From contig OX424560.1 in the NCBI GenBank assembly GCA_949152475.1, forward strand, positions 2,418,001 to 2,482,000: a DNA stretch of 64,000 nucleotides, in the 5' to 3' direction. Both the position numbers and the translations under genes were made by a program. Source of the stretch: Terebella lapidaria (Eukaryota > Annelida > Polychaeta > Terebellida > Terebellidae). Numbering within the stretch: the first letter of the stretch is position 1; every line of letters starts with the position of its first letter. Below are positions 1,346 through 64,000 of this stretch, piece after piece. The notes under the pieces are model-generated. The model did not search any database and was not told the origin of the DNA. It saw only the letters and a program-made list of their open reading frames with translations.

Positions 1346-2247
1346 GCTAGAGTAACCAAAGTTTCCATTGTTTTACAGTACATTTACGATTCTTTTTTAT
1401 GTTCCTCGAAAGACGCATCTTCACACCATCATTGTGGTAGCTTTCACCTCTGGCAAGAAACTCATCATCAGCTGTTACATCATTGGATGGGGTGAGTTCT
1501 GTTACATTCTATGTTCTGTATACATTCATATTTTGTTGTACATGTACCAACCTGTTGCACAAAAACAAGGTAGCAATGTAATAAATCATATGATTTTGTC
1601 ATGATGATACGAATACTATAAATTTTGTATGACGGGTGAGATTAACTGAGCTGCTATGTCATGGGATAGGGCCTGTTCTGTTACTTCTCAAAATAAACAT
1701 GACAGGAGTATTTTTATGATGATGTATTATCCATAGCATGTGTTAAATGTCGATGTCACAATTTCATTTATGACCATGATTTAATAAACATAACTCCATC
1801 AATTGAAAATCTCATGGTTAGATTTTTGTCATTTGATCAATGGGAAGGTCAAAGATGTATAATGTGATGCTACTTAAGATATATCAAAATGCATCACTTT
1901 ATATCTTTTGGATCAACCAGAATCAACTCCTGTGTGTAAACAATTATTGACTCGTGGTGTTTTGTTTATGGCCTCCATGGGCAGTCAACAACATATCAAT
2001 AACACAAGTCGTACCGCCATAAAATGTATGGACAATATATGTATGGACTAATAACTCTAAAATGGCAGTTGAATGGTAAACACGTATTTTTCACGAGCTC
2101 CTCCCTTTTTGCTCTCTTACACCGTGTTATCACTACATGGAATAATTTGGAATAAACTAATGGATTCCTAAATCACCATAGAAGAAGAATGGAATAATTT
2201 TAGTGTGAATTATTTCACGAGAAGACATTATTTCAACTATACAGACC
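1346..2247. other. Unassigned; 5' flank of LINE-like ORF1 unit
   Basis: No gene is evident. The last ~200 bases may be the 5' UTR of the ORF1-NADAR unit, since they lie inside the segment that interrupts family A. No clear promoter or target duplication was found. Confidence 0.35.
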
Positions 2248-3378
2248 ATGATTGAGGACATCAAGGAAGAAATGTCTCACAGCCTTGAGAAGGTAACTGA
2301 ATGTGTCAAATCCATTTCAACAGAACACCGAATATTAAAAGACAAGTATTGTGAACTGGAAAAGGTCGTGGGGGTCCAACAGCAACAAATCAACAACCTC
2401 GAGAAGAAATACTCTGTAATTAAAGACAGACTGCTGAAACAGGAGAGCTATTCTATGAGGGAAAACCTGATAATTAGTGGTATACCAGAGGTGGAGGACA
2501 AGTCGGAATGTGATATCCGTACTACGCTGATGACAATGTTCTCGAGTGAGATGCGACTGGACACGTCCAACATCAACATTGTCAGCTGCCACAGACTTGG
2601 TCCCAAGAACGAAAAATCCAACAGCTCACGAAACATCATCGCCAGATTTTCCAGGCATAGTAGCAAAAAGATGGTCCTTGGAGCTGCAAAAACACTTGCA
2701 AAGCGCAGTAGTCCAGTTTATATCAACGAGCAGTTCCCGCAGGAGATCACCCAGAACCGCAACACCCTCAGACCCCTCCTGAAGAAAGCAAGGTCGCTCG
2801 AGATGACAGCCTACTCTGTCCAGGACACCCTCTGCATTGGTAACGAGCGCTTCACAGTCGACTCACTGCAAGGACTGTTTGACATCAGCGACGTTGGCAC
2901 GAGTACCACTGATTCTCTCGTACGATTCAGTGGCAGGTACTCGATGTACAGCAATTTCTTCACCAGAGAGGGTTTGCTCACCATGGACGACGCCAAATAC
3001 TCCAGCACGGAACAGTACTACCAGCGGTGCAAAGCTGACCACATCGGGTACGTCGCAGTCACCACGGACATCATGGCCCAAACAGATCCACCGGTCATCA
3101 AACGGATCGGCGACGCCGTTCCTCTATCCAAGTCCTGGGAAAAGGTGGCTCAGAAGGTAATGCTGGACTGTGTGACCGCCAAGTTTGGCCAGAACGACGA
3201 TCTCCGCACTGCGCTCCTGGCTACGGGTATCCGATCCTTCGTCGAGTGCACGCGCGACCGGCTCTGGGGCTGCGGACACACCCTGAACGACGACAGATCC
3301 GCCAGCAAGAAGGACTGGGTCGGCAAGAACGTGATGGGTCTCACACTAGATAAAGCTCGACTACCACTGATGAAGTAA
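2248..3378 (+). CDS. LINE ORF1-like RNA-binding protein fused to a C-terminal NADAR domain
   Basis: An uninterrupted 376-codon frame. Residues ~1-75 form a Gln/Leu/Lys-rich coiled coil. Residues ~75-180 look like the L1 ORF1 (transposase_22) RNA-binding domain: RENLIISGIPE, a CHRLGPK turn, then IIARF. About 180-220 corresponds to the ORF1 C-terminal domain. Residues ~226-376 match NADAR (YbiA-like): FSGRYSMYSNFF, STEQYYQRCKA, DRLWGCG and DWVGKNVMG. In other organisms NADAR proteins are N-glycosidases acting on riboflavin-pathway intermediates or removing ADP-ribose from nucleic acid; ORF1 proteins coat LINE RNA as trimers. No ORF2 follows: the stop is followed by a ~480-base 3' UTR and a pentamer tail, so this looks like an ORF1-only (half-LINE) unit. 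The first ATG before the coiled coil was chosen. The domain calls are strong; the role of the fusion is inference. Confidence 0.85.
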   Translation: MIEDIKEEMSHSLEKVTECVKSISTEHRILKDKYCELEKVVGVQQQQINNLEKKYSVIKDRLLKQESYSMRENLIISGIPEVEDKSECDIRTTLMTMFSSEMRLDTSNINIVSCHRLGPKNEKSNSSRNIIARFSRHSSKKMVLGAAKTLAKRSSPVYINEQFPQEITQNRNTLRPLLKKARSLEMTAYSVQDTLCIGNERFTVDSLQGLFDISDVGTSTTDSLVRFSGRYSMYSNFFTREGLLTMDDAKYSSTEQYYQRCKADHIGYVAVTTDIMAQTDPPVIKRIGDAVPLSKSWEKVAQKVMLDCVTAKFGQNDDLRTALLATGIRSFVECTRDRLWGCGHTLNDDRSASKKDWVGKNVMGLTLDKARLPLMK

Positions 3379-41618: not shown

Positions 41619-44377
41619 TTATTTGTATACAATACTTTTTCGTTTTTCCCATAGCTGCATTATATATTTTGCACACAATTTCCAGTTATGACTCATACTG
41701 TACTTCAATTTCTCGACATCCGAAATATTAATAAAGTCAGGTTCACATGATTTACAGCAATCAAAAAATTGTTTCCGTTCTTTTTGATAACCTTTGCATA
41801 CAAGCATGAAATGTATCTCATCCTCAACTTCACCAGAGTTACATATATTACAAGTTCTTTCTTCTATTGTCATTCTTCTGTATATGCCTTCAGTTGTATC
41901 GAATACATTTTGAAAGCGACCGGTTTCTATGTGCAATGGGAGAATACCAAATCTGAACTGTGCAAATACAGATATAACATACTTAGAACTATAGCAAATT
42001 ATATAGGGTTCTACCTGGAAATCGAATTTAAATTCTCTATATGTTCTTAACTTTGGTTTTTTCAGTACAGTTGTTTTCCATTCTTCACACATACGTTCAT
42101 AACACCTGTTGTAAACCACAACATCATCAAATATAGACTTAGATTCATAAATATGTGCTAGACCTAATTCAGATGAAATTTTCATAATTTCACCGCACCA
42201 ATTGTGACATGGATTATCATAACACCATAAAAATACTTTTTTGGTAATTCTATTGCTGTCTAACTGAATGAGTCTGTTCCAGAATTTCAACATCTGAATA
42301 TATCGTCTAAACTTTAAAGACAACCAGGCCATGTCTCCCTGTACCCCAGCCGTAGGGGCAAAACGATGCACCCCCAGAAAATATCGCATGGCTCTATTAA
42401 TAACAGTATCACATCTGATGTGTCTTCCATAACCCCATATTTCTGCACCGTAATGTAATACGGGTAAAACTCCAGCTTCAAACAATTTTGTATATGTTTT
42501 ATAACCACAATCTTTTAGTGCATTGAACTTAGTTATAATTCCACCGAGTGCCCTACCTGCTGATTCTGTTAACACTTGTGTACATTTATCATAGTTCAAA
42601 AATTCATCTAAATAAATTCCTAAATACCTGTAAGAGTCCACTTTACCTAAAATACTGTCAGCAAATTGGAATTCGAATTGTGTGCGTGATTTTTTCTTTG
42701 GACGGAAATGCATAACTTTAGTTTTCGCAACATTGACCTTCAGACGCCATTCATTCATCCACTTATACAAGACATCAATCATCACCTGTAAACTACATTC
42801 TGTATCCGCAATTAGAGCCATATCATCTGCATACAGCAAAATACTAATCATGTCATTGTCAATCCATACCCCTTTACCAGTAGCCTTTATGACATTTGCA
42901 AAAACATTCACAAATAAAGCAAACAATAGAGGTGACAGGTTATCCCCTTGTCTCACACCACTAGATATATCAAACCAGCTGGTTAGCACACCATTCAAAT
43001 TTAGGCAAGCCCTAGTGTCTGAGTACATTTGTTTTATAGTGCTAAACACTTTACCATCAATGTCATAACCAAGGAGTGTATAAAATAACATATCTCTATC
43101 TACACAGTCAAATGCTTTTTCCAGATCCACAAAAGCAACATAAGTTGACAAATTGTTTGTCATACGATAGCGTATGACACTTGTTAATGTAAAAATATGT
43201 TCTTGGCAAGATCGATGTCTTCTGAACCCATTCTGTTCATCCACAATCAAGTCAAGTTCTTCACAAAACATACCTATTCTATTTCGGAGAACCCCCGATA
43301 ACAATTTACTAACGCAAGAGAGCAGACTGATACCCCTATAGTTCAAGGGTACACAGGGGTCATTCGAACTAGACTTAGGTATTGGCTTAATTACTGCATC
43401 TTTCCATATGCTAGGAATACAAGAATTTTTATAACAGATGTTAAGAAATTCGGCTATTAATGGTACAACCATGTCATGTTTTAAAACCTCATTTGGGATA
43501 TTATCCATACCACATGATTTTTTTGTTTTGAGCAAGGACACACAGCGTCTGACCTCTTCATAATCTATATCCTTGTTGATGTAATCATTCTCTACATACC
43601 GATCATCATGCATACAATATTCATGCACCTCGAGAGTGCTAACTCTCTCATGGTACAGATTATCACCATCTCCTGATACAATGGTATTACCTTGGTAAAG
43701 GTTTTCAAAAGCTTCTTTCCAGGTCTGTAATACAACATTTTTGTCTGTAACAATGTCATTACCCTGTCTTATTTGCAGCGGTATATCTGTTTGTTTCCGC
43801 GGCCCCAAGGCTTTCAGCATTTTCCAAAATTGTTTCGGGTTATTTACACAAGCCTCATCAATATTAATAACTTTTTGTCTCTTATACTGTCTTTCAAATC
43901 TACGCAGTGTTCTATCAAACAATGTCCGCTTATTGTGAAAATTATTTCTAAGCAAAGTTTTTTCTGTTACAGTACTATATTTAGCTTTCAAAAATATATT
44001 TTCTGCTTGACACATATCTTTCCAGAGTTTTGATAACTCGTCATTCCAAAATGGCTTATGTAGTTTACTACGGCCTCCACATTTACCTTTATTCCTATTT
44101 ATCACAGGTACATATTCATCTATCTCTGATTGCAGTAGCTGTACGAAGTCACTGTATAGGCAGTCAATATTTTCTGGAACATTCACACAAGTACGTAACT
44201 GAAATAAAAATCTATTCATACGTTCGGTCCACTCAGGTGTCGACATGAATCCATCACGTGTCCTAGAGAAATCATAACGTTTCGTATTATAATTGCCTGA
44301 TCCCTGTACATCAGTGACATTTTCATCAGGTTTACCAACATCACAGAGTAAATTCACAGTGTATACAGTCGAATGGT
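41619..44377 (-). CDS. Non-LTR retrotransposon ORF2: end of endonuclease, reverse transcriptase, C-terminal zinc motif
   Basis: A single ~920-codon open frame with no break. It starts at the very end of an apurinic-type endonuclease (SDHS motif at ~44365-44375). The reverse transcriptase follows, with FVDLEKAFD (~residue 426), GVRQGDNLSPLLFALF, and the catalytic YADD (42818-42832, ~residue 524). Then the thumb region (YRYLGIYLD..) and a C-terminal CNIC..H...C zinc motif (~residues 844-865). It would nick target DNA and reverse-transcribe its own RNA. The 5' end is truncated inside the endonuclease; the first few codons of the open frame (to 44402) derive from flanking repeat. The element is dead on arrival but evidently young, because the frame is undamaged. 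Clade not resolved by eye (L1/Tx1- or I-like). Confidence 0.9.
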
Positions 44378-44714
44378 CACTAAATTCATGGAAACACTGC
44401 AAGACAGTTCATATTTCTCTTATCACATTTGGGTAGGTAAAGTGGAACTATTCTTGGTGAATGCCAGTTTTGCTGAAATAGCCTCATATGATATTGACTA
44501 TCTTATTGTTGAATTTGTTTCACAAGTTTCACCTGTTGTAAGACAGACACTGAGGAACAGGGACATTCTTGTACCACAGTGCAACATAGAATTGCTGGAC
44601 AACATCAGAGTCTACATGTCTCCATTTCTTCAGTCATATGACCATTTCATGGAGCGATCAGACATGTTAAATGGTGACGACGAGGACACAGATGTGTTCT
44701 TCGTCCACACATGA
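44373..44714 (+). CDS. Unknown small protein, first ORF of the SGNH unit
   Basis: 113 codons, ending FMERSDMLNGDDEDTDVF. The middle is hydrophobic and mixed (FVSQVSPVVRQTLRNRDILVPQ). The N-terminus of the gene may be lost, because the LINE inserted at ~44377 cuts the unit here. Decayed relatives occur at 15551-15690 and 24110-24260, always upstream of SGNH-type sequence where that is present. No family recognised; the acidic C-terminus is the only notable feature. Confidence 0.45.
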   Translation: MVTKFMETLQDSSYFSYHIWVGKVELFLVNASFAEIASYDIDYLIVEFVSQVSPVVRQTLRNRDILVPQCNIELLDNIRVYMSPFLQSYDHFMERSDMLNGDDEDTDVFFVHT

Positions 44715-45378: not shown

Positions 45379-46064
45379 AATGAGGCGCAGCAGACATCAT
45401 AATGCACTGGTCGAGTTCCAACCAAAAAGAACATTGCCATGTCCTATACTGCAAATATATGACAGCGTTCATATAAAACAAGTGGGATATGAATGTCCAT
45501 ACAAGCATCAAGCTTACAAGTGGCCAGCTGTTCTCGACAATAAGTTCACATTGATATCTGACAGTATTTGTGAATTTGTTAAAAAAAAAAACGCGTGAAA
45601 CAGTTGTCCAATCGTTTCCTGGAATCAATCTTGACAGACTTCTTTGGCAAATGAAATTGGAAAAAGTAAAAGTCACGGATTTCAGTATCATTATTGTACA
45701 TTGTGGCACAAACGATGTGGTACTCAACCACGAGAGCATTGTTTCCACATATGAGGAAGTGATTAGTGAAATCCGGAGGAAAAATCCAGCATGCATCATT
45801 GCGATGTCAGGACTCTTGCCAAGACCTAGAGACTCAGAGAGAATCAGTCTACGTGTCAAGTATATAAACAACAAGCTGCAGGCACTGGCTCGGGCACACC
45901 AAGCACACTTCTCACACACGTGGCGTAAGTTCGTGGACAATCAGAGAGGTGTGAAATCCGAACTCTTCGGCAGAGATGGTCTTCATCTAAGTGCTTCAGG
46001 CACCGGGGCGCTCAAAAAGTACTTTGATGGCACTGTAATATGGCTGAAGGGGAAACTAAGTTGA
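45379..46064 (+). pseudogene. SGNH/GDSL hydrolase of a mobile or repeated unit (one frameshift)
   Basis: All SGNH blocks are visible: block I LISDSI (Ser nucleophile at ~45563), block III IVHCGTNDVV (~45697-45730), and block V DGLHLSASG with the Asp-x-x-His pair (~45980-46000). Block I is in one frame (45341-45598) and the rest in another (45570-46064); the shift is at the A-run 45580-45591, so this copy is broken by 1 bp or the run varies. Members act as esterases or deacylases; in retroelements (for example the esterase of CR1-type ORF1 proteins) the role is unclear. Decayed copies at 18030-18305 and 24531-24950 show the gene is repeated. No signal peptide is evident. Confidence 0.8.
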
Positions 46065-54178: not shown

Positions 54179-54506
54179 TGTAACGGTTTTGGGGCGTACC
54201 CAAAAGTTTCCCCTAGGTAATTCTGTTAGTGTTTTGTGATATTATGGTTAAATAACCGTTTATTAAAATGTATATGTGTTTAAAGGTTCATACGGTTCCG
54301 TATTGTTAATGTTTAAAAGGTTTTCCGTCTCGGAACTTGGTATATTTGTGATGTTGGTAAAGCCGGAGACGGAGCCTGAACCGGAACCGGAGACGGAACC
54401 GGACACGGAGCCGGAACAATGGAGTACAAAAACGTAATGACGTTATTTCCGGAAGGTCATGTGATCAGCCTCGTTTTCGGTTTAAAAGGTGACGTGTCAG
54501 CCACTG

Positions 54507-54611
54507 ATTGGTTCTAGAGTGTTTTTAGAAATCCGGAAAATATCAGTGTTTTGGCGGACTATGACGTCACAATAGGTTGGTCACGTGACGTGGGTCTCAG
54601 GTCTATAAAAG
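54507..54611 (+). promoter_or_regulatory. LTR promoter: CCAAT, CRE, E-box, TATA
   Basis: ATTGG (54507), TGACGTCA (54562-54569), TCACGTGA (54581-54588) and TATAAAAG (54604-54611), in that order and in typical spacing. The same set recurs upstream of two further genes in this element. Confidence 0.75.
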
Positions 54612-54752
54612 CCCCCGCTTCACAGCGGACGGCGGAGTTGGTGTCCTGACGTCGACCTGTGCAGACCCCTTCTCCCATAGCAGAGTACTCCCTTGTTCCG
54701 GATAGAGTCATCCAGATGATAGCAGTTAAGTCTTCCGACTGTGCACTTGGAA

Positions 54753-54758
54753 AATAAA
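54753..54758 (+). terminator. LTR polyadenylation signal AATAAA
   Basis: About 145 bp downstream of the TATA box, followed by a T/G-rich stretch (gagttgtttttccgtgttcg), the expected arrangement at the end of R. Confidence 0.6.
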
Positions 54759-55579
54759 CATGAAAACTTCAACCGAGTTGTTTTTCCGTGTTCGTTAGGG
54801 AACTGGAATTTATAATAAAGTTAGTTCACCGGAAAAGAAAGTAATACGGAGTGAAGGGAGATAAGACCACAGTCGGTTAAGACCAAGTTGTAACGACGTC
54901 TTAGGGTGATCTAAGAACCCAGATCACCGAGGAAGGAGACGGAGACGGAGACGGAGGTGGAATTCAACGGCGCAACTACGGAGGCGGTATCGGACAGAGC
55001 AGTTGCGGAGACGGGAACGACAAAGCAGTTGCAGAGGCGGTACCGGACGACGGAGTTGCAGAGGCAGTACCTGACGGAGCGGTTGCGGTAACCGGAAGTG
55101 AGAACACTTCCGAGATACTCCATTTCAGGTGCAGTCGCAGGTTGCGGTGAGGCGGAGCCAACCGGAGCAGATTGCAGTGCGGCGGAACCTGGCAGAGCGG
55201 TTGCAGTATTCGGAAACGGCAACGTTCCCGGATTCTTTATTCCAGGCGCAGTCGCAGTTTGCAGTAAGACGGAAAACGACGGAGCTGTTGCAGTAAAGCG
55301 GTATCCCGACGGAGCAGTTGCAGTACCCGGAGACGGAAACGCCTCCGGATCCTTACTTTACAGGTGCAGTTGCAGATTAGCAGTCGGACAACGGTTAAGA
55401 GGTCCATTCCAGACCACGCTACCAACCTTAGAGACTTCTAGCCGGAGTTCAACCGTACAGCAGTAGCAGTTTCCCGGAGTTTTACCATTTCAGCTCCGGT
55501 TGAATAACAACTCACCCACCTCCCAAGAAAACCGGTTCATCAAGACGTCACAGAAGGGTGCAAACCCGTTACAACTTTT

Positions 55580-55597
55580 TGGTGGCAGCGGTGGGAT
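55580..55597 (+). other. Primer-binding site, tRNA-Leu type
   Basis: TGGTGGCAGCGGTGGGAT, starting 6 bp after the LTR end. It is the exact complement of an 18-nt tRNA-Leu 3' end (…TGCCACCA) as I know it from animal tRNA-Leu. Its position fixes the LTR boundary. Confidence 0.85.
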
Positions 55598-55607
55598 CAT
55601 CTGCAGT

Positions 55608-56879
55608 ATGACTACTAGACGGGGCAAATTGGCGGAACAGCAGCTGAAGGCAGCCGTGTCGGACACGGAGCAGCCTGTAGGAGCAGTAGGAGCTGAGCCG
55701 TTGCAGATGCCGGTTGCGGAAAAGGAAGCAGTTCGTCCTGCCGAGCGAAAACTGTTGCAGCCGGAAATGCAGAAAGTAGTTGCAGAAGAGCCCCTTCGGG
55801 TTCCTCAAGGAGTACAGCCTGCAGGGCAGTTAGCAGAGGCGGAAATTAACTTTCCGGACCAGGCTGGCGATCGGGAACCGGATGTGGAACCGGAGGGCGG
55901 AGAGAATTTAGTCGACAACCTGACCAGATTATTGGCGACCCAAATGGAGGTGTTTCAGCAGCATCTGGCAGTAACCGGAAAGCAGCAGCAGGCAGAAGCA
56001 GTACAACAACCAGCACCAAGGGCAGGAGTAGCCAGATTAATGACATACGACGGAACTGATCCATGGCTGGAGTATGAGGCTCACCTCCTTGAATACGCTC
56101 GGTACTACCGTTGGTCAGCAGAGGAAAAGGCGCTGAACTTATGTGTCAGTTTGAGGGGTAACGCCCACAGCATACTACTGGATCTGTCCGCGGAGCAGAG
56201 ACACAGCTTTGATACGGTTGTGGCGGCATTAAAACAGCAGTTTTGTCCGGGGGAGAAAATTGTTTTCCAGGCGGAATTGCAGACACGGAAATTGCAGCCG
56301 GAGGAGGAGCTGTCCGAGCTGGCCAGAGACATACGGAGCAAGACGCGGCTAGCTTACCCAAAAGCGGATCCGGCAACAACAGAAGTGCTCATGAAGATGC
56401 ATTTCTGCAACAGTCTGACTAACCGAGATATGCGGTTGTCGGTATTGAAAAGCCACCCGGAAACGCTGTCGCAGGCCCTGGCTTTCGCTACCGAGTATGA
56501 GAGCATTATGAAGACGGACAACAGCAGACCAGCGGAGCGACACCAGACGAGGCAGCTGAATACGGAGCCGGAGTGGAGCCAGCAGGTGAACGAATTGCGG
56601 AAGCAAGCCGAGCAGACTCAGCAGCAGATGGCGGATCTGATGACTCAGGTCAAGGAAGCGGTTAGCCGGCAGCAGCAGCAGCGCAGTTCCCGAGCAGATT
56701 TAGAATGCTTCAACTGTGGCCGGAAGGGGCATTTTGCCCGAGACTGTAGGCAGCCGAAGCAGCAGCAGCAGCGGCGTCAACCACAACAGCAGCAGTCGCC
56801 GCGACAACAGCAGCAGCAGCCGCAGCAGCAGCAACAACTGCAGCAGCCACGACAGCAGCAGCAGCAGCCGGAAAACTAG
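55608..56879 (+). CDS. gag: Gag polyprotein with CCHC zinc knuckle
   Basis: 423 codons from the first ATG after the primer-binding site (MTTRRGKLAEQQ); an earlier in-frame ATG at 55500 lies inside the LTR and is rejected. Order: Glu/Gln/Pro-rich N-terminus with a coiled-coil-prone segment; capsid-like region (~140-310: MTYDGTDPWLEYEAHL, LCVSLRGNA, AALKQQFCPGE, the Ty3 retrotransposon gag pattern); coiled coil; one zinc knuckle CFNCGRKGHFARDC (CX2CX4HX4C, 56707-56748); and a CAG-encoded poly-Gln tail to the stop. Gag packages the RNA into particles. The frame is intact. Pol follows in the -1 frame, with G-GAA-AAC just before the UAG as a possible slip site, not a perfect consensus. Confidence 0.9.
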   Translation: MTTRRGKLAEQQLKAAVSDTEQPVGAVGAEPLQMPVAEKEAVRPAERKLLQPEMQKVVAEEPLRVPQGVQPAGQLAEAEINFPDQAGDREPDVEPEGGENLVDNLTRLLATQMEVFQQHLAVTGKQQQAEAVQQPAPRAGVARLMTYDGTDPWLEYEAHLLEYARYYRWSAEEKALNLCVSLRGNAHSILLDLSAEQRHSFDTVVAALKQQFCPGEKIVFQAELQTRKLQPEEELSELARDIRSKTRLAYPKADPATTEVLMKMHFCNSLTNRDMRLSVLKSHPETLSQALAFATEYESIMKTDNSRPAERHQTRQLNTEPEWSQQVNELRKQAEQTQQQMADLMTQVKEAVSRQQQQRSSRADLECFNCGRKGHFARDCRQPKQQQQRRQPQQQQSPRQQQQQPQQQQQLQQPRQQQQQPEN

Positions 56880-56881
56880 AG

Positions 56882-57880
56882 CGGGTCGCGGAAAAGGGGA
56901 AATTCGGGACCCGGAAGAGAGGACACCCCCATAACCGGCAGGTGGTTCACGGACCCGGTCCCAGGGGCGAGGTGGGCATGTGTGTGACAGCCAGAATATG
57001 CGGAGAGCCAGTAACGCTGATAATCGACACCGGCAGCACTGTCACAATGCTCAACCTACAAACCTGGGAACGGATCCGGAAGCCCGGAATGAAACTGAAG
57101 CGGTCGCCGATTCGTCTTTCAATGGTTGACGGAAGTAACATACGGACGCATGGCCGGAAAGAACTCCCACTCAACATCGCAGGAGTAGCTGAGACCGTGA
57201 CGTTCGAGATTGCAGACTGTGAAGACGAAGGAATACTGGGTATGGATTTCATCCGTTCCCGGATATCCGGCATAAATTTCGACCGAATGACCATGCAGAT
57301 GGGCAGCCAGGAGGTGTTCCTCACCATGTTCGAGCAGACCAGGGAGCCGTTTCCGATCAACGCTATAGCAGATTACCAAATTCCGCCGGAAACGGAACAG
57401 CTGATAATAGGACAAGCAGAGAGTGTCCGGGAAGCAGAAGGAGTACTAGAAATGCCGCAGGAGCCTACTGAGAAAAGACCTTGGCTGATCGGGAGAACTT
57501 TATCCCGGATAAAGCAAGGAACAGTCCCGGTTCGAGTGATCAACGTGATGGCAGAGCCGGTAATCATCAAGAAAGGAGCGCAGTTGGCGACGATGACCAC
57601 CTTAGCAGCCGGTTGCAGTGTTGTGCCGTTGGCGGAGCGGAGCAGGAAGGTGCAGATTTCCACGGAGTCGGAGGCCGGGCGGAATTGGAGCGGGTACGAC
57701 AAGCTGCGGCAGTTAGCAGAGCAGACCCAGGATGCAGTGCCGAGTCATTTCCGCGAGAGAGTAACTGACCTCCTATTTCGGAATAAGCCAACCTTCAGTA
57801 ATGATGCCGGAGAACTGGGGCAGACCAACGAGGTACAACATCAGATAAACACGGGCAGTCACCAGCCGATTAAGCCCGGA
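56882..57880 (+). CDS. pol: Pol: aspartic protease and N-terminal linker of reverse transcriptase
   Basis: Frame -1 to gag, open across and upstream of the gag stop. The retropepsin motif IIDTGSTVTML (DTG at 57026-57034) is followed by a hydrophobic-Gly (ILGMDF) pair typical of Ty3 proteases. After it comes the usual connector ending HQINTGSHQPI, where Ty3-type reverse transcriptase should begin. The frame then meets a junction at ~57880 and ends out of frame at 57928. Protease would cleave Gag-Pol in the particle. This part looks intact. Confidence 0.85.
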
Positions 57881-57882
57881 AA

Positions 57883-58284
57883 AAGTCGGCCTTCTGTGTT
57901 CCTGGCGGCCTTTACCAGTTCAAAGTAATGAGTTTCGGCTTGTGCAATGCTCCGGGTACGTTCGAGCGGTTGATGGAGAAGGTGCTAGGCGGATTGTCCT
58001 GGAAGAACTGCCTCATATATCTGGACGACATCATAGTCTACAGCAAGACCCTGGAGGATCACATCCGTGATCTTCAGGAGGTGTTCAGCAAGCTGAGAGA
58101 GGCAGACCTAAAAGTCAAACCGTCAAAATGCAAGTTCTTCCAGCCGGAGGTGTCTTTCCTAGGTCACATAGTCGGCAGAGACGGTATCCGCACCGACCCG
58201 GCAAAAACGGAGGCAGTACGGAAGTGGCGGACACCCACCAACCTGACGGAGCTGCGCAGTTTTCTGGGACTTTGCTCCTATTAA
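57883..58284 (+). pseudogene. pol: Pol: reverse transcriptase, internally deleted
   Basis: The frame changes at ~57880-57883 and the sequence jumps from the N-terminal connector to GLYQFKVMSFGLCNAPGTFERLM. The fingers and first palm block, with the first catalytic Asp (LDL motif), are missing, roughly 100 residues. The catalytic YLDD (58018-58029) and the KCKFF..FLGH segment remain. A TAA at 58282-58284 interrupts the frame in the GLCSY region; the same frame continues after it. This copy cannot encode active reverse transcriptase. Confidence 0.85.
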
Positions 58285-58839
58285 CGGAAGTTCGTGCCGA
58301 AGTTCTCCGAGATTGCAGCGCCGCTGAATCACTTGACGGAAAAAGGGGTGCAGTTTCGGTGGCAGACGGAGCAAGAGCAGGCATTTGCAGAGCTGAAGAA
58401 CCGCCTAGTATCGGCACCGATACTCGGGTACCCAAGGGAGCAAGGCCGATATATCCTGGACACGGACGCCAGTGACACCGGGCTGGGAGCAGTACTGTCA
58501 CAGAAGCAGGGCAACCAGGAGCGGGTGATAACCTACTTGAGCTGCAGCTTAACCAAAGAAGAACGGAGATACTGTGTCACCCGGAAGGAGCTCCTGGCGG
58601 TTGTGTTTGCGGTACAGAAGAATAAGCAGTACTTGCTGCGACGACACTTCCTTCTTCGCACAGATCATGGCAGTCTTACCTGGCTTATGAATTTCAAGGA
58701 GCCCCAGGGGCAGGTAGCCCGGTGGATTGAGCTCCTGAGTGAGTTTCATTTCGACATCGAACATCGTCCGGGGCGAATCCATAATAATGCGGATGCCTTG
58801 TCCAGATCCCCATGCAGCCAATGCGGAAAAATCGACTGA
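58285..58839 (+). pseudogene. pol: Pol: RNase H domain
   Basis: In the same frame as the reverse transcriptase, after the TAA. LDTDASDTGLGAVLSQ carries the first catalytic Asp (~58465). RKELLAVVFAV, FLLRTDHGSLTWLM and HRPGRIHNNADALSR supply the remaining blocks, a standard Ty3 RNase H that removes RNA from the hybrid. It ends at TGA 58837-58839 shortly after a CxxCG; the frame continues beyond. Confidence 0.85.
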
Positions 58840-58983
58840 AAACAAGCCAAGATAGACGCCTGGAACTACGGAGAAAGGATCCGGCAGACACGAAGTGAAG
58901 AAACTCCTCAGCCCAAGCCAAGGAAGGGGGAACGCCGGAAGCGGTCAAGGAGATCGGGCGGAGAAGCAGAACTGACGGAGGAA

Positions 58984-59133
58984 GCAGTCCCAAGGAAGGC
59001 GGTTGCAGTAGCGGAGAAAGCAGTCCCAAGGAAGGCGGTTGCAGTAGCGGAGAAAGCAGCGTCCCGGAAGCCGGTTGCGGTGACGGAGAAAGCAGCGTCC
59101 CGGAAGCCGGGTGCGGTTGCGGTGACGGAGAAA
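58984..59133 (+). repeat. 36-bp tandem repeat in pol between RNase H and integrase
   Basis: Units at 58984, 59020, 59056 and 59092 (the last 42 bp), in frame with RNase H and encoding AVPRKAVAVAEK / AASRKPVAVTEK-type Lys/Ala repeats. The frame shifts relative to integrase at ~59133. The repeat resembles histone-tail-like basic linkers and is unusual at this point of pol. Confidence 0.85.
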
Positions 59134-59137
59134 GCAG

Positions 59138-60397
59138 TTGCTGAAAGTCGACGGAGTAGTCTACCGGAAATGGAAAACGGCAGAAGGAACCAGCCGAATG
59201 CAGTTAATAACCCCGAAGGAGCTGAGACAGGAGATTTTCCGTCTGGCCCATCAGAGCCGGACGGGAGGACACCTCGGAAGCAGAAGGATGGCGGCTAGCA
59301 TTCGGAGGCGGTATTTCTGGCCGGCTATGATGCAGGACATAAAGCAGTGGGTGCTGAGCTGTGACGAATGTGCGTCAAGAAGTATGCAGAACCTGAAACG
59401 ATCTCCGATGCAGAAATACCGGGTTGGAGCTCCCATGGAGAGGGTGGCAATGGACGTGATGGGTCCGTTACCTAAATCCACCCGGGGGAACCGGTACATC
59501 TTAGTAATCGGTGATTACTTCACCAAGTGGGTAGAGGCTTACCCGATGCCGAATCAGGAAGCGGTGACGGTTGCGGACATATTCGTCAACCAGTTTGCAG
59601 CACGGTACGGTATCCCGATGGAGATCCACACCGACCAAGGCAGAAATTTCGAGTCCGACTTGCTGAGAAATGTTTGCAGAATCCTGGGGATTCACAAGAC
59701 ACGGACAACCGCTTTCCGACCTCAGTCGGACGGTTTCATTGAGCGATTCAACCGGACGCTGCAGCAGATCCTGAGCCTGTACGTAAGCGAGCGGCAGACC
59801 AACTGGGATCAGCTAGTTCCGTTGGCGATGGCAGCTTACCGGAGTACCCCGCAGGAGACAACCGGGCAGAGTCCCAATTTGCTGATGCTGGGCAGAGAAG
59901 TCAACACTCCGGTAGAGTTACTGATTGGCAGGCCGCCGGGCGAATCGACAGCAGAAGTAACAGAGTATGGCAGTCAGCTCCGGGAGCGACTAGAAGCAGT
60001 ATACAAGGCGGTTCGAGCGAAATCTGGCAGAGAGATGGAACGGCAGAAGAAGCTGTACGACCGGAGGAAGGTCGACAATCAGTTCCAGCCAGGAGACCGA
60101 GTGTGGATGGCGGTCAAAACACGGAAGAAGGGCAAAGCTCCCAATTTGCAGAGGAAGTGGAGCGGTCCAAAGCTAGTGCTGAGCAGATTTACCGACGTGA
60201 CCTACGAGATTGCAGAGAGTGAAACTCGGCAGAAGGTGGTTCACTTCGATTTGCTGAAACCGTATAATGGTGTCAAGCATCCGAGATGGATGAAGCGGAG
60301 AATGGCGGATTCCTGGAGGCAGACGGAGCCGCCGAAGCAGAGTAGTGTTCCGGAGACGGAACAGACGGTCTCTGAGTCGGATACGGACTCGGAGTAA
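59138..60397 (+). CDS. pol: Pol: integrase
   Basis: 419 open codons. The zinc domain HQSRTGGHLG...CDEC is complete (HHCC). The catalytic core has D in MDVMGPLPK, D in HTDQGRNF and E in FIERFNRTL, the D,D-35-E triad, with TTGQSPNLLMLGR. The C-terminus has a GP-type module (RKWSGPKLVLSRF...HFDLLKPY); no chromodomain is apparent after it, only a charged tail. Integrase inserts the cDNA. It is out of frame with RNase H in this copy, so expression as part of Pol is doubtful; the domain itself is undamaged. Confidence 0.9.
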   Translation: MLKVDGVVYRKWKTAEGTSRMQLITPKELRQEIFRLAHQSRTGGHLGSRRMAASIRRRYFWPAMMQDIKQWVLSCDECASRSMQNLKRSPMQKYRVGAPMERVAMDVMGPLPKSTRGNRYILVIGDYFTKWVEAYPMPNQEAVTVADIFVNQFAARYGIPMEIHTDQGRNFESDLLRNVCRILGIHKTRTTAFRPQSDGFIERFNRTLQQILSLYVSERQTNWDQLVPLAMAAYRSTPQETTGQSPNLLMLGREVNTPVELLIGRPPGESTAEVTEYGSQLRERLEAVYKAVRAKSGREMERQKKLYDRRKVDNQFQPGDRVWMAVKTRKKGKAPNLQRKWSGPKLVLSRFTDVTYEIAESETRQKVVHFDLLKPYNGVKHPRWMKRRMADSWRQTEPPKQSSVPETEQTVSESDTDSE

Positions 60398-61120
60398 AGC
60401 CGCAGAGGACGAAGAAATATGAGAAGACGGAGTGAGCTGTAGAGCAGGAGAAGGAGATAGCTGAGACCCTGGTAAAACGTTGAGTTCCGGCAGAGAGCGA
60501 CCGCAAGAAGTCGGAGCAGTGAGCAAGTGCTGGTTCCGGAAACAGGGCGGAGAAAGGAAGCAGAGCGGAAAGCGGTGCAGAGACCGGATAGAGACATCCT
60601 AGAGGTTCTGACTGGGTTGAGCGCATAGTCAACCAGTCCAGGGTAGCGGCCAGGGGTCCGGAAGAACCTGGGTTAGCGGTCTAGTATCTCCAGAGAAGCA
60701 GCTACACGTCTTCCGTATACGGAGAATTAAGACAGAAAAGTTTTCCGGCTGTAGACATCCGACCGGAGTTTCCACTTAGCAGAGACAGTAAACCGACTGC
60801 AGATTGACAGAAACGGAGAAACATCACCCCAGATAGGAAGGCGCCTCCTTCTGGACAGAATGTATGCAGTGTCGACAAGCAGTAATACCAGTGAGCAGAT
60901 ATGCAGTTGACGAAGCAGTACAGATGGCGGAAACGCCCAACTTGCAGTCTAGATGTTCGTCTGAGAGGCAGATTCAACTGGCTGAGACTCTATTCAACCC
61001 TCCTGATGGCAGAGATACTTCAAAATTGCAGATACTTCGCTCGGAGAAGCAGTTGAAAGGGAGCCGGAAAAAACCCGGAGAAGCCGGTTGAGCCGGAGAC
61101 GGACACCTCTCGGTTAACGG
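60398..61120 (+). other. Spacer after integrase
   Basis: Same base style as the element (cggag, gcagttg). No frame with recognisable domains on either strand and no envelope-like transmembrane protein. It separates pol from the first internal promoter. Confidence 0.5.
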
Positions 61121-61139
61121 TTGAGTTTTTGCATAATTG

Positions 61140-61209
61140 TGACGTCACTCCTGAGGCAGCCAATCAGCGTGGAGCTTTTCAAGTCACGTGAGCAGAAAGG
61201 GTATAAAAG
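61140..61209 (+). promoter_or_regulatory. Internal promoter 1: CRE, CCAAT, E-box, TATA
   Basis: TGACGTCA (61140-61147), CCAAT (61160-61164), TCACGTGA (61184-61191), TATAAAAGG (61202-61210). Almost the same set as the LTR promoter. It lies ~230 bp upstream of the zinc-finger gene at 61443. Confidence 0.75.
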
Positions 61210-61442
61210 GGCCTTGAAATCGGGCTCTGACAGCAGTCGGAGAGCAGACCTCGAGCTGTGCACATCGCAGACAAAGTTTGGCGGAATTGAATCAAGTCCA
61301 GCATTTTCCGGCAGCGGCAGGTTTTGCAGTGAAAAACGACTAAGTGTTTCCCGGAAGACCACCAGTCCGGAGAAGCGGTGCAGAAGCGGTGCAGTAAAAG
61401 CGGTGCAGTAGATCGACAATTTCAGTTTCCCGGCCTTCCGGA

Positions 61443-62144
61443 ATGGCCTACTCGGCGTTCCTTGAAAGACAAGATCGCGGCCGGAGCAGAGATTGGGCAA
61501 GCCCTCAGCCACTGGATTATAGCCGGCTGTGTAAGCGGTGTGACCGGATGTTCGAGAGTGCGACGGACAGGAGACGGCATGTGTGCCCAGCCCAGAGATA
61601 TCATTGCTGTTTGTGTGCCTTCTACGGCAACCGGGCGAACGACCTTAGGCGGCATCTCCGGGAGATGCACGGCTGGAAGTACCCTTCCGGGAACCGTCCT
61701 CCTCAGGACGAGGCAACCCTCAACCATGTGGGAACCTTTGATTCGGCCTGGCGGGGAACAGCTACGCAGTCCCGGCGAGGGCGGTTCCGGAGATTCTGCA
61801 CACAGTCACCTAGGGAGAATCCGGTCCCGGAAACTTATGCGGACCAGCTTCCGTTTGGACCTGACTGGGATGCTGGAGCAGCCGCTCCCATCGAACAACC
61901 GGAACCGATCGATCCTCCGGTTTGGGTTCCGGATCCGCAGGGCTGTCTTAGGGCAGCGGAAGACTCATCGCCGGAAGATTGGGAGCCGGAACTGGCGATA
62001 TCGACGGAACCAGAAGAGGAAGTTCAGCCGGTGGAAGACTGGGAGGCAGAGATCCGGGAGTGGGAATATAAACCACCTTCTCCCACCCCGGACACGGAAT
62101 CGGAGACTTCCGAGTACCACACCGCGGATGAGGAGGAACCTTGA
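61443..62144 (+). CDS. Accessory two-zinc-finger protein with acidic tail
   Basis: 233 codons, intact. ~Residues 30-50 hold CKRC-x12-H..C, a C2H2/C2HC-like finger. ~Residues 53-76 hold a standard C2H2 finger (CCLC-x12-H-x4-H: CAFYGNRANDLRRHLREMH). The C-terminal ~80 residues are strongly acidic with Pro and Trp (SPEDWEPEL, EPEEEV, DTESETSEY, DEEEP), like an activation domain. It lies downstream of its own promoter, in the sense orientation of the element, with the same base style. A DNA- or RNA-binding regulator is the natural inference; no homologue is recognised. The overlapping 338-codon frame at 61378 is low-complexity and rejected. Confidence 0.75.
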   Translation: MAYSAFLERQDRGRSRDWASPQPLDYSRLCKRCDRMFESATDRRRHVCPAQRYHCCLCAFYGNRANDLRRHLREMHGWKYPSGNRPPQDEATLNHVGTFDSAWRGTATQSRRGRFRRFCTQSPRENPVPETYADQLPFGPDWDAGAAAPIEQPEPIDPPVWVPDPQGCLRAAEDSSPEDWEPELAISTEPEEEVQPVEDWEAEIREWEYKPPSPTPDTESETSEYHTADEEEP

Positions 62145-62151
62145 GGCGAAT

Positions 62152-62277
62152 GGCAGAGTAGCAGTGGACGGAGGCGGTTGGCAGTTTCGCGGAGACGGAG
62201 AAGAAGAGGCGGATGGCAGAGTAGCAGTAGACGGAGGCGGTTGGCAGTTTGGTGGAGACGGAGAAGAAGAAGCGGTG
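62152..62277 (+). repeat. 63-bp tandem repeat, two units
   Basis: 62152-62214 and 62215-62277 share ggcagagtagcagt.gacgga and ggcggttggcagttt in order. They lie in the 3' region of the accessory gene, followed by an A-run and (AT)n at 62297-62330. Confidence 0.85.
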
Positions 62278-62375
62278 GCAGTTAGCAGCAACAACACGGA
62301 AAAAAAAAAAAAATATATATATATATATTATTTATCCAAGAAGACCACCAGGAGGAGTTGCAGTTTGCTGAGCAG

Positions 62376-62426
62376 CCAATCACCAAGCAGATAAGCCAGT
62401 CACGTGACTTCGAGAGACTATAAAAG
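62376..62426 (+). promoter_or_regulatory. Internal promoter 2: CCAAT, E-box, TATA
   Basis: CCAAT (62376-62380), TCACGTGA (62400-62407), TATAAAAGG (62419-62427). Spacing from E-box to TATA (11 bp) matches internal promoter 1 (10 bp). The CRE is absent. The next ATG is at 62505, ~55 nt after the expected start. Confidence 0.75.
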
Positions 62427-62504
62427 GGGGCAGATAGCTGTTACCGGATGCAGAAGGCAGTTTGCTGTAGCTGAGTCAACATCGTCTCAAAGCAGAGAAT
62501 CAGA

Positions 62505-64000
62505 ATGCCGAAAGTAAAGACAACACCCCGTAAGCCCCGCCCTCACCGGTGTGGAGACTGCAACCTAGAGTTCAAGAGCAAGCACACGTTGCTCCGGCAT
62601 GTCACGGAGCAGCACACGAGTGAAGTCACCGTCTTCGCCTGTCCGCAGTGTGACCATTGGAGCAGACGGAAAGAGGGAACACAGAAGCATCTGCAGGCCT
62701 GACACGCAATGGACGCGAACCCGATTCGACTAAGGGTGGGCAGAAAGCAGTTTGAGGAGAAAAGCCTCCAGTCCAAGATGACCCCACGGAAAAGCAAGAA
62801 GCCGGTAACACGGCTTGACCAGTTGTCGGATACGGAGTCGGAGTCGGGAGGTTCGGTTTCGTCCCGGACCCGGTACCGTTCCGGTACCCAGTCGGTGGCC
62901 ACACTAGCAGCCGACGTTTCGTCCACGGAGGCGGAGAGCAGTTCGGAAGAGGAAGCGGAGCTGAAAATCATGGCAAGTGAAGACGAGTTGCAAGATCCAG
63001 GAGACCCGAAGCCGGTTAAGCCGCCCGTGACCCGGAGTTCTTCCCGGAACACCTCCCGGAAAAACAGCCCAGACCCATCTCGAGGTACCGGAGCAGATCG
63101 AGACCGCGGAAAGAAGCGGAGTCGCAGCCGTTCGCCGGATAAATCCGGACGCCATCAACGCCGAGAATATAGGAAGGAGAGCCCGGAGCGAGCCAAGGAC
63201 CGAGGCGGAGAACGTGGCCGAGAGGAGAAACGACACACCCCACCCAAGTCTTCCGGAGGCAGCGTCAAGGGAAAAGGCAAGGCGGTGTATGACTACAAGT
63301 TCCGGCTGTTGGAGGAAGGTTCCAGCGGAGCAGCGGCAGAAGTTGGAGTAGCAGACATTGCGGAAATGCAGAGCAGAGACGATGAGGAAGACCTTTTCCG
63401 GAGCCCACCTCCGAGAACGACTAGCAGTGGCAGAGCAGTGAGCAGCGTGATTGTCCGGCCCGGAGGCGGAGCAGAAAGCAGATCCAGCGGTCGAGCCGAT
63501 AGCAGAGCAGATAGCCGAGCCGATAGCAGAGCAGATAGCCGAGCCGATAGCAGAACAGATAGCAGAGCAGATAGCCGAGCGGACAGCAGACCCATTGGCA
63601 GATCAGGAGGCAGACCGGAGACCAAAACGGAAGGCGGAACCCGGAGCAGAGCTGGCAGTGAGACGGAGACCCGAGGATCCACGGAGAGAACTTTGCCGGC
63701 AACCATTCAAGCAGTAGCCGGAAGCAGAACCAGTTCAGCGGCTAGAGATGACGGAATGGAGTCTTCCGCGTCTGACCGAAGCCATGCAGACGTGCAGAGA
63801 GCCCGGAGGAGTATCCTGGTAGACCAAGCCAGAGCTACACCCGGAATCCTGTCTCCGGTGGAAACCCGACCTCGACAGTCTTCCAGTGAGCGGTCCGGAA
63901 GGAGCCAAGTCCGAGCACCAACCCAGAGTCCACCTTACACATTCTACCCGTTTGGCGGTCCTTCAACTCAACCGTGTCCGTCCCATTGTTTCCCGGTGAA
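62505..64000 (+). CDS. Accessory zinc-finger protein with Ser/Arg-rich (RADS)n tail; in-frame TGA; runs off window
   Basis: The ATG at 62505 opens a basic start and a C2H2 finger (CGDC-x12-H-x4-H). The second finger, CPQC-x12-H-x4-H, is cut by a TGA at 62700-62702, one codon before its last His. The same frame then stays open from 62703 to the end of the window (432 codons). This part is acidic/Ser-rich, then SR-like (KKRSRSRSPDK, EYRKESPERAKDRGG), then carries (RADS)n repeats at ~63490-63590, then Ser/Arg/Pro. An ATG at 62709 offers restart after the TGA. Such length without stops in a long Arg/Ser-biased frame supports real coding. SR-like tails are typical of RNA-processing or RNA-packaging proteins. 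Incomplete at the 3' end. Confidence 0.7.

Follow-up and report, generated by a model that had tools for sequence, protein, structure and literature searches.

A multicopy Ty3 retrotransposon of the annelid Terebella lapidaria with two selected zinc-finger genes behind predicted promoters resembling that of its long terminal repeat

Among retroviruses, an internal promoter has been termed unique to the foamy viruses, or spumaviruses, in which transcription begins at this promoter and the product, Tas, then activates both it and the promoter of the long terminal repeat (LTR), according to the part of the account drawn on here (PMC7390438). For Ty3 elements, the only accessory gene with its own promoter that we met in the literature covered is the antisense gene of maize Grande, and the open-licence literature searched yielded no Ty3 element of an animal in which zinc-finger genes are linked to promoters. 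A survey of 1709 mollusc LTR families makes no use of the terms accessory, zinc finger, ORF or envelope in its main text, in the portion covered (PMC6238403). Here, we describe a Ty3-type LTR retrotransposon from a stretch of 64,000 nucleotides of the Terebella lapidaria genome (assembly GCA_949152475.1, contig OX424560.1, positions 2,418,001 to 2,482,000, forward strand; the window). The element carries two zinc-finger genes, ZF1 and ZF2, between integrase and the 3' LTR, and both are maintained as proteins. We propose, giving the idea an even chance of being right, that this multicopy element uses them as nuclear self-regulators in the manner of the spumaviruses, each expressed from a predicted E-box/TATA promoter resembling that of the LTR.

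The full length of the element is 11,887 bp, of which the first 9.8 kb lie inside the window. A first-pass annotation, made from the letters of the window, had described an LTR, a primer site, gag and pol, followed on the same strand by two further TATA-bearing units, with no 3' LTR in these 9.8 kb, and had suggested looking for the repeat downstream. All of these parts are present, with TATAAAAG at 61202 and 62419 and the genes starting at 61443 and 62505, and the 3' LTR begins 672 bp beyond the window end, in the stretch directly 3' of it (L032). The features are as follows, in window numbering.

54179..55573, + strand: 5' LTR, 1395 bp, TGTAACGG...CCGTTACA, with TCACGTGA at 54581, TATAAAAG at 54604 and AATAAA at 54753
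55580..55598, + strand: primer binding site TGGTGGCAGCGGTGGGATC
55608..56879, + strand: gag, 423 aa, with a CCHC zinc knuckle (Pfam zf-CCHC, 3.6e-07)
56750..57928, + strand: protease frame (Pfam Asp_protease_2, 1.8e-10)
57874..58284, + strand: reverse transcriptase, its N-terminal part absent in the window copy (RVT_1 from profile position 92 of 205)
58285..58839, + strand: RNase H (RT_RNaseH, 1e-33)
59126..60397, + strand: integrase (Integrase_H2C2, 9e-21; rve, 1.5e-13), matching the integrase chains of prototype foamy virus (PFV) and Ty3
61140..61209, + strand: predicted promoter 2, with TGACGTCAC, CCAAT, TCACGTGA (61184) and TATAAAAG (61202)
61443..62144, + strand: ZF1, 233 aa, with one canonical and one degenerate C2H2 finger
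62376..62426, + strand: predicted promoter 3, with CCAAT, TCACGTGA (62400) and TATAAAAG (62419)
62505..62702, + strand: N-terminal part of ZF2 with both fingers; TGA at 62700 in the window copy
62703..64000, + strand: Arg/Ser-rich tail of ZF2, the frame continuing to 64379 in L032
64672..66065 (L032:773-2166), + strand: 3' LTR, pairing with the 5' LTR and ending the element

The two LTRs are 98.4% identical over 1401 aligned columns (9 mismatches, 3 gaps), the purine tract AAGGAAGGGGGAG lies just 5' of the 3' LTR, and a 4-bp target duplication, TTAT, abuts both LTRs. Because the LTR pair and the duplication enclose ZF1 and ZF2, both genes are part of one insertion; for the window copy, the same pair and duplication rule out a nested separate element or a host gene. 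The primer binding site is, we presume, compatible with the 3' end of an animal tRNA-Leu. Within the 64-kb window no second LTR was found, and Rfam and tRNA scans of it gave no matches. The GC content is 0.50 to 0.56 across the parts of the element and 0.36 to 0.39 in the flanks, and the first-pass claim that the base style of the element continues after pol was borne out, since all 13 overlapping post-pol blocks (the last two being one stretch) were scored as element-like, compared with none of 108 host blocks. When the element's own 13 blocks were scored by leaving one out, 11 were element-like, the exceptions being the U3 block and one pol block.

By its tested features the element is a Ty3 retrotransposon. 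Its pol follows the order protease, reverse transcriptase, RNase H and integrase of the Ty3/gypsy group (Metaviridae), its RNase H and integrase match the Ty3 chain 7q5b, and it has the paired TG...CA LTRs, primer binding site, polypurine tract and target duplication within the 4-6 bp of that group. Troyka elements, which have CG...CG termini and 3-bp duplications in the part of the description consulted (PMC12440569), are ruled out by the TG...CA termini and 4-bp duplications, and the Grande/Retand type by the position of both ZF1 and ZF2 on the sense strand of gag-pol. No env gene was found after pol: there was no Pfam env domain, and ZF1 and ZF2 are the only long frames conserved in the region from integrase to the 3' LTR. 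For this reason a spumavirus identity is ruled out, and it is a retrovirus-like way of working, rather than membership, that we propose.

The window copy is itself defective: its reverse transcriptase lacks 304 bp that nine of nine full copies have, a stop separates reverse transcriptase from RNase H, and the TGA at 62700 cuts ZF2 within finger 2, after the third of its four zinc ligands. We therefore looked to other copies in the genome (761.6 Mb, 438 contigs, with the window on contig 6 at 2418001-2482000). A search with ZF1 gave at least 203 matches, identities among those listed running from 100 down to 85%; this is a lower bound, as 150 of 776 first-look candidates were scored. Ten copies across that range were fetched, each in two pieces. 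As the first-pass annotation had anticipated for other copies, the accessory units lie between integrase and the 3' LTR: the order LTR, gag, protease, reverse transcriptase-RNase H, integrase, promoter 2, ZF1, promoter 3, ZF2, tail, LTR recurs in nine of the ten, all located through ZF1, a route that favours intact ZF1 and would miss copies without zinc-finger genes. One of these nine has an extra LTR and gag piece on its 5' side, and the tenth copy spans only the part from upstream of promoter 2 through the 3' LTR.

Eleven copies, the window copy included, were examined for target duplications, and a perfect 4-bp duplication is present in eight of the nine that could be tested. The LTR pairs are 94.7-99.9% identical (n=10; one 5' LTR was cut by the fetched piece), and three of them differ at 2 or 3 positions without gaps; therefore, the family has been recently active. 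Pol is one uninterrupted frame of 1363 aa or more in seven of nine full copies, and gag has no in-frame stop in any of nine copies (normal terminator excluded). Seven of the ten other copies encode ZF2 in a continuous frame of 587-620 aa, and none of the ten has a stop in the finger part. In a wider set of 30 loci, consisting of the best ZF1 protein matches and the window copy, the integrase end lies upstream of ZF1 in every locus, the full 233-aa ZF1 is present in 29, and the start of ZF2 was found in 26, with 16 of these open to the end of the locus.

Some loci show other arrangements. On contig 3, at 54.622-54.629 Mb (L024 and L025), ZF1 is present four times at intervals of about 2264 bp, as a tandem array of an element fragment; in L025 the integrase end, promoter 2 and ZF1 are present, and no promoter 3 lies within the 1.5-kb flank. 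Upstream of the truncated copy on contig 12, near 9.05 Mb (L049), more than 1700 codons are open in all three forward frames, probably owing to a tandem repeat that lacks stops. In the interval from ZF1 to promoter 3 (62145-62300), where there are tandem repeats, mean nucleotide diversity among copies is 0.105, compared with 0.014-0.033 in the neighbouring parts. A poly(A)/TA run, as well as tandem repeats, lies between the two zinc-finger units.

The length of the reading frames is an uneven guide to whether these are genes. Of 300 shuffles, none reaches the 432 codons of the ZF2 frame and 1% reach the 248 codons of the ZF1 frame, and the antisense strand holds a frame of 232 codons; for the latter two reasons it is selection, not length, that carries the argument. 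The ratio of nonsynonymous to synonymous polymorphism (pN/pS), pooled over 10 copies, or 11 in the case of the two zinc-finger genes, with the window copy included and the copy without gag and pol left out of the counts for those genes, is 0.32 for ZF1, 0.18 for the ZF2 tail and 0.04 for the ZF2 fingers, the strictest constraint of all stretches measured. The corresponding values are 0.23 for gag, 0.18 for protease, 0.16 for the reverse transcriptase part, 0.11 for RNase H and 0.09 for integrase. Wrong frames of the same genes give 0.55 to 3.63, mostly above 1 (one undefined), and the three frames of a non-coding control downstream of integrase have values of 0.88, 0.68 and 0.47, this control having stops and frame-breaking gaps in all ten other copies. 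As the control reaches 0.47, a value near 0.3 is by itself only a modest signal; over 36 copies, ZF1 stays at 0.29. Its C-terminal part evolves fastest (mean nonsynonymous divergence, dN, 0.046, compared with 0.012 in the first 90 columns). The 16 ZF2 frames of one comparison were picked as open, whereas the main pN/pS values used the 10 other copies without such a choice. On the strength of these low values relative to wrong frames and the non-coding control, ZF1 and ZF2 are both maintained as proteins.

It is here that a passenger origin has to be weighed, in which the two units would be captured pieces of host genes, or a nested element, that travel with each copy and serve no purpose. The fingers are indeed of host type, and the poly(A)/TA run and repeats between the units could be read as traces of such a capture, but purifying selection on a par with that on gag, the same order in nine of ten other copies and a composition that is the element's own make this explanation very improbable.

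The second line of evidence concerns the promoters. The E-box motif TCACGTGA followed by the TATA motif TATAAAAG occurs three times in the element, in the LTR (54581/54604) and ahead of each zinc-finger gene (61184/61202 and 62400/62419), and no other such pair occurs in the window. The strict module was not seen in 200 dinucleotide shuffles of the element, and a relaxed form reached at most one occurrence in any of 1000 second-order simulations, compared with three observed; chance is thereby ruled out as the origin of the motifs. The E-box is preceded by a CCAAT box, which lies 24 bp upstream in both unit 2 and unit 3 and 74 bp upstream, in inverted orientation, in the LTR; TGACGTCAC is common to the LTR and unit 2. 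Units 2 and 3 align over 63 bp with a score above that of 300 out of 300 shuffles. What the LTR shares with the post-pol region in alignment is repeats of common words, and the alignments of the LTR with unit 2 and with unit 3 do not rise above shuffles (38 and 62 of 300, respectively, score as high), so the link to the LTR rests on the motifs and their order.

Among the 30 loci, promoter 2 retains the strict module in 29 and promoter 3 is present in 27 (24 strict, 27 relaxed). In every one of the 30, no ATG stands in the leader of unit 2 between the TATA box and the start codon of ZF1. On the + strand, neither AATAAA nor ATTAAA occurs at 56229-64000, so that a shared 3' end within the 3' LTR is to be expected for all RNAs.

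Each unit had been said to encode a two-finger protein, which holds for ZF2, with its two canonical fingers, and only in part for ZF1, in which one finger is canonical and the other degenerate. Both canonical fingers of ZF2 are present in six of six natural copies checked (first 100 codons). In Pfam they are weak, with a best E-value of 0.0012, below the cut-off; against solved structures, CTCF chains take the first 13 rows, and the best single stretch scores 31.7 bits over 58 gap-free residues, linker included. The smallest E-values of this comparison (1.4e-17) add up several repeated CTCF fingers, and the rank of CTCF may mislead, given that the PDB covers only part of the C2H2 families. The ZF2 fingers also resemble the DNA-binding fingers of Helios and Ikaros, while the tail of the protein is 28% arginine plus serine. 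ZF1 likewise has CTCF as its first structural match, weakly (E 9e-05). CTCF itself has eleven C2H2 fingers; ZF2, with two, lacks the long array. Descent of either protein from CTCF, and DNA binding, are putative readings of sequence likeness. A common origin of ZF1 and ZF2 has weak support (P 0.04 with C and H fixed in place), and an AlphaFold model of ZF1 was set aside at a mean predicted local distance difference test score of 46.8.

These matches lend themselves to another explanation, in which the proteins would be chromatin tools, the CTCF-like finger pair insulating copies from silencing or steering integration. CTCF is the top match of ZF2 and the weak first match of ZF1, but two fingers are few for a specific site and the caveats on PDB coverage and on the summed E-values apply here as well; we consider this quite improbable.

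Beyond the genome, the proteins have few relatives. A protein search with ZF1 returned one (P0001), which is 97.7% identical to a subfamily in the same genome and thus not independent evidence, and a protein search with ZF2 returned none. The viral collection contained no relatives and prokaryote contigs no relative of ZF1. A 5.4-kb contig filed under a Rhodospirillales metagenome-assembled genome (L001) encodes a Ty3-type integrase of 38% identity and ends just past the match; it is a probable eukaryotic contamination.

The sense strand of the element is, in addition, marked by a few short words. Across its whole length (54179-66065), there are 128 occurrences of AGCAG and none of its reverse complement CTGCT, 281 of GCAG against 16 of its reverse complement, and 267 of CGGA against 87, whereas host DNA scaled to the same length has 8.3 AGCAG, 7.5 CTGCT, 33.0 GCAG, 27.5 CTGC, 18.6 CGGA and 25.3 TCCG. 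The biased words are spread over the LTR, the genes and the non-coding parts. GCAG exceeds synonymous shuffles in gag, protease, integrase and ZF2, and not in reverse transcriptase, RNase H or ZF1; CGGA does so in gag, protease, RNase H, integrase, ZF1 and ZF2, and not in reverse transcriptase. Integrase and ZF1 have a surplus of TCCG as well, so that CGGA cannot be counted as a wholly strand-specific signal; for GCAG, the bias is suggestive of selection on the RNA.

A strand-specific bias that partly exceeds synonymous shuffles suggests a reader at the RNA level, and with it an explanation that we hold to be unlikely, although not to be taken lightly: the zinc-finger proteins, above all ZF2, would act on the element's RNA, binding the unspliced genomic form and promoting its export, stability or packaging, as do CERV of the Cer1 element or retroviral Rev, with no activation of promoters. 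CERV is a precedent from an LTR element, as far as the part of its description used here goes (PMC10309623), and the Arg/Ser-rich tail of ZF2 would suit such work. The fingers of ZF2 are, however, closest to those of DNA-binding CTCF and Helios/Ikaros, yet C2H2 fingers can bind RNA; the TCCG excess in integrase and ZF1 speaks against a purely RNA-level signal, and RNA binding by the proteins is itself putative. We would give a rather small chance to a more elaborate, virus-like circuit in which the CCAAT, GTCACGTGA and TATAAAAG module, present three times, would drive two zinc-finger regulators as well as the genomic RNA; one regulator, with a CTCF-like finger pair and a Ser/Arg (SR)-type tail, would read the GCAG and CGGA words that mark the sense RNA of the element along its whole length.

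In the self-regulation that we favour, the LTR promoter would give rise to genomic RNA and the two internal promoters to shorter mRNAs ending at the same poly(A) site in the 3' LTR, with one host activator that recognizes GTCACGTGA turning on all three. ZF2, through its two tightly conserved fingers and Arg/Ser-rich tail, would bind the DNA or RNA of the element and raise or redirect its expression, and ZF1 would be its faster-evolving partner. The constraint on both genes relative to gag and pol (0.32, 0.18 and 0.04 for ZF1, ZF2 tail and ZF2 fingers, compared with 0.09-0.23) and the match of the ZF2 fingers to DNA-binding C2H2 proteins are consistent with this. The broader expectation that the lineage has its own accessory genes is upheld by the target-duplication-flanked insertion, the recurrence of the units, purifying selection and the LTR-like promoter modules.

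Several points weigh against this proposal. Both the regulatory role and the firing of the promoters are predictions from sequence, and the Arg/Ser tail would suit a task on RNA no less than one in transcription. The host part of the window has one looser CACGTG-TATAAA pair (47426, - strand), the columns of the promoter motifs are scarcely more invariant among copies than their surroundings, and the LTR alignments, as noted, do not beat shuffles. In unit 3 an ATG at 62448, near the expected start site, precedes that of ZF2 at 62505. Finger 1 of ZF1 is degenerate and its finger region is less constrained (pN/pS 0.48 in the first 90 columns). ZF2 lacks one full frame in three of ten copies, and in the 30-locus set three of 25 ZF2 starts other than that of the window copy run into a stop inside the finger part. 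Finally, the sampling of copies through ZF1 also counts against it.

Elsewhere in the window, a 389-aa open reading frame (ORF) with a NADAR domain (2209-3378, + strand; E 2.4e-29) lies behind a stretch that resembles, by eye, the ORF1 protein of a long interspersed nuclear element (LINE), and a 929-aa frame (41619-44408, - strand) encodes a LINE-like reverse transcriptase (RVT_1, 1.3e-35). A GDSL lipase-like ORF (1.5e-13) is found at 45555-46064 on the + strand; GDSL ORFs occur in retroelements, according to the part of one report drawn on here (PMC5408684). Between 18376 and 22313 there is a direct repeat of about 2 kb, 99-100% identical, with copies 1991-1993 bp apart.

How, then, does the element compare with known systems, so far as the consulted parts of their descriptions go? 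Among LTR elements of invertebrates, those of bdelloid rotifers with ORF3 share the extra ORFs after pol, but theirs are env-like, GDSL or DEDDy and expressed from spliced messages, and the words zinc and promoter are absent from the text covered (PMC5408684). The Steamer-like MchSLE1 of Mytilus has the primer binding site, polypurine tract and pol domains of an LTR element, and differs in being 4758 bp long, with one ORF, LTRs of 185 bp and an Asn-tRNA primer (PMC11046912). Cer1 of Caenorhabditis elegans, an LTR element likewise from an animal, encodes a nuclear regulator of its own, CERV, but this protein is made from a spliced mRNA and serves the export of genomic RNA, and an internal promoter is unmentioned in the abstract (PMC10309623).

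Among plant Ty3 elements, Retand has a long region between pol and the 3' LTR and a probably DNA-binding accessory protein (PMC11963269), but its ORFs are mainly antisense and carry a TRP28 domain. Gene23 of maize Grande likewise lies between pol and the 3' LTR, with its own promoter and a nuclear product (PMC7264820), and is a single antisense gene, whereas the annelid element has two zinc-finger genes on the sense strand, with LTR-like promoter modules. In the spumaviruses, with tas and bet, as is predicted for the annelid element, regulatory genes lie on the sense strand toward the 3' end and follow an internal promoter that exists alongside that of the LTR (PMC7390438). The spumaviruses differ in having an env gene that contains the internal promoter, in Tas being a proven activator and in the little sequence that their two promoters have in common; in the annelid element an env was not found, the two internal promoters are predictions and the regulatory function is putative. 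If our proposal is true, complex retrovirus-like regulation arose in Ty3 elements too, and a recently active, multicopy element would provide a natural system for testing what such regulators do.

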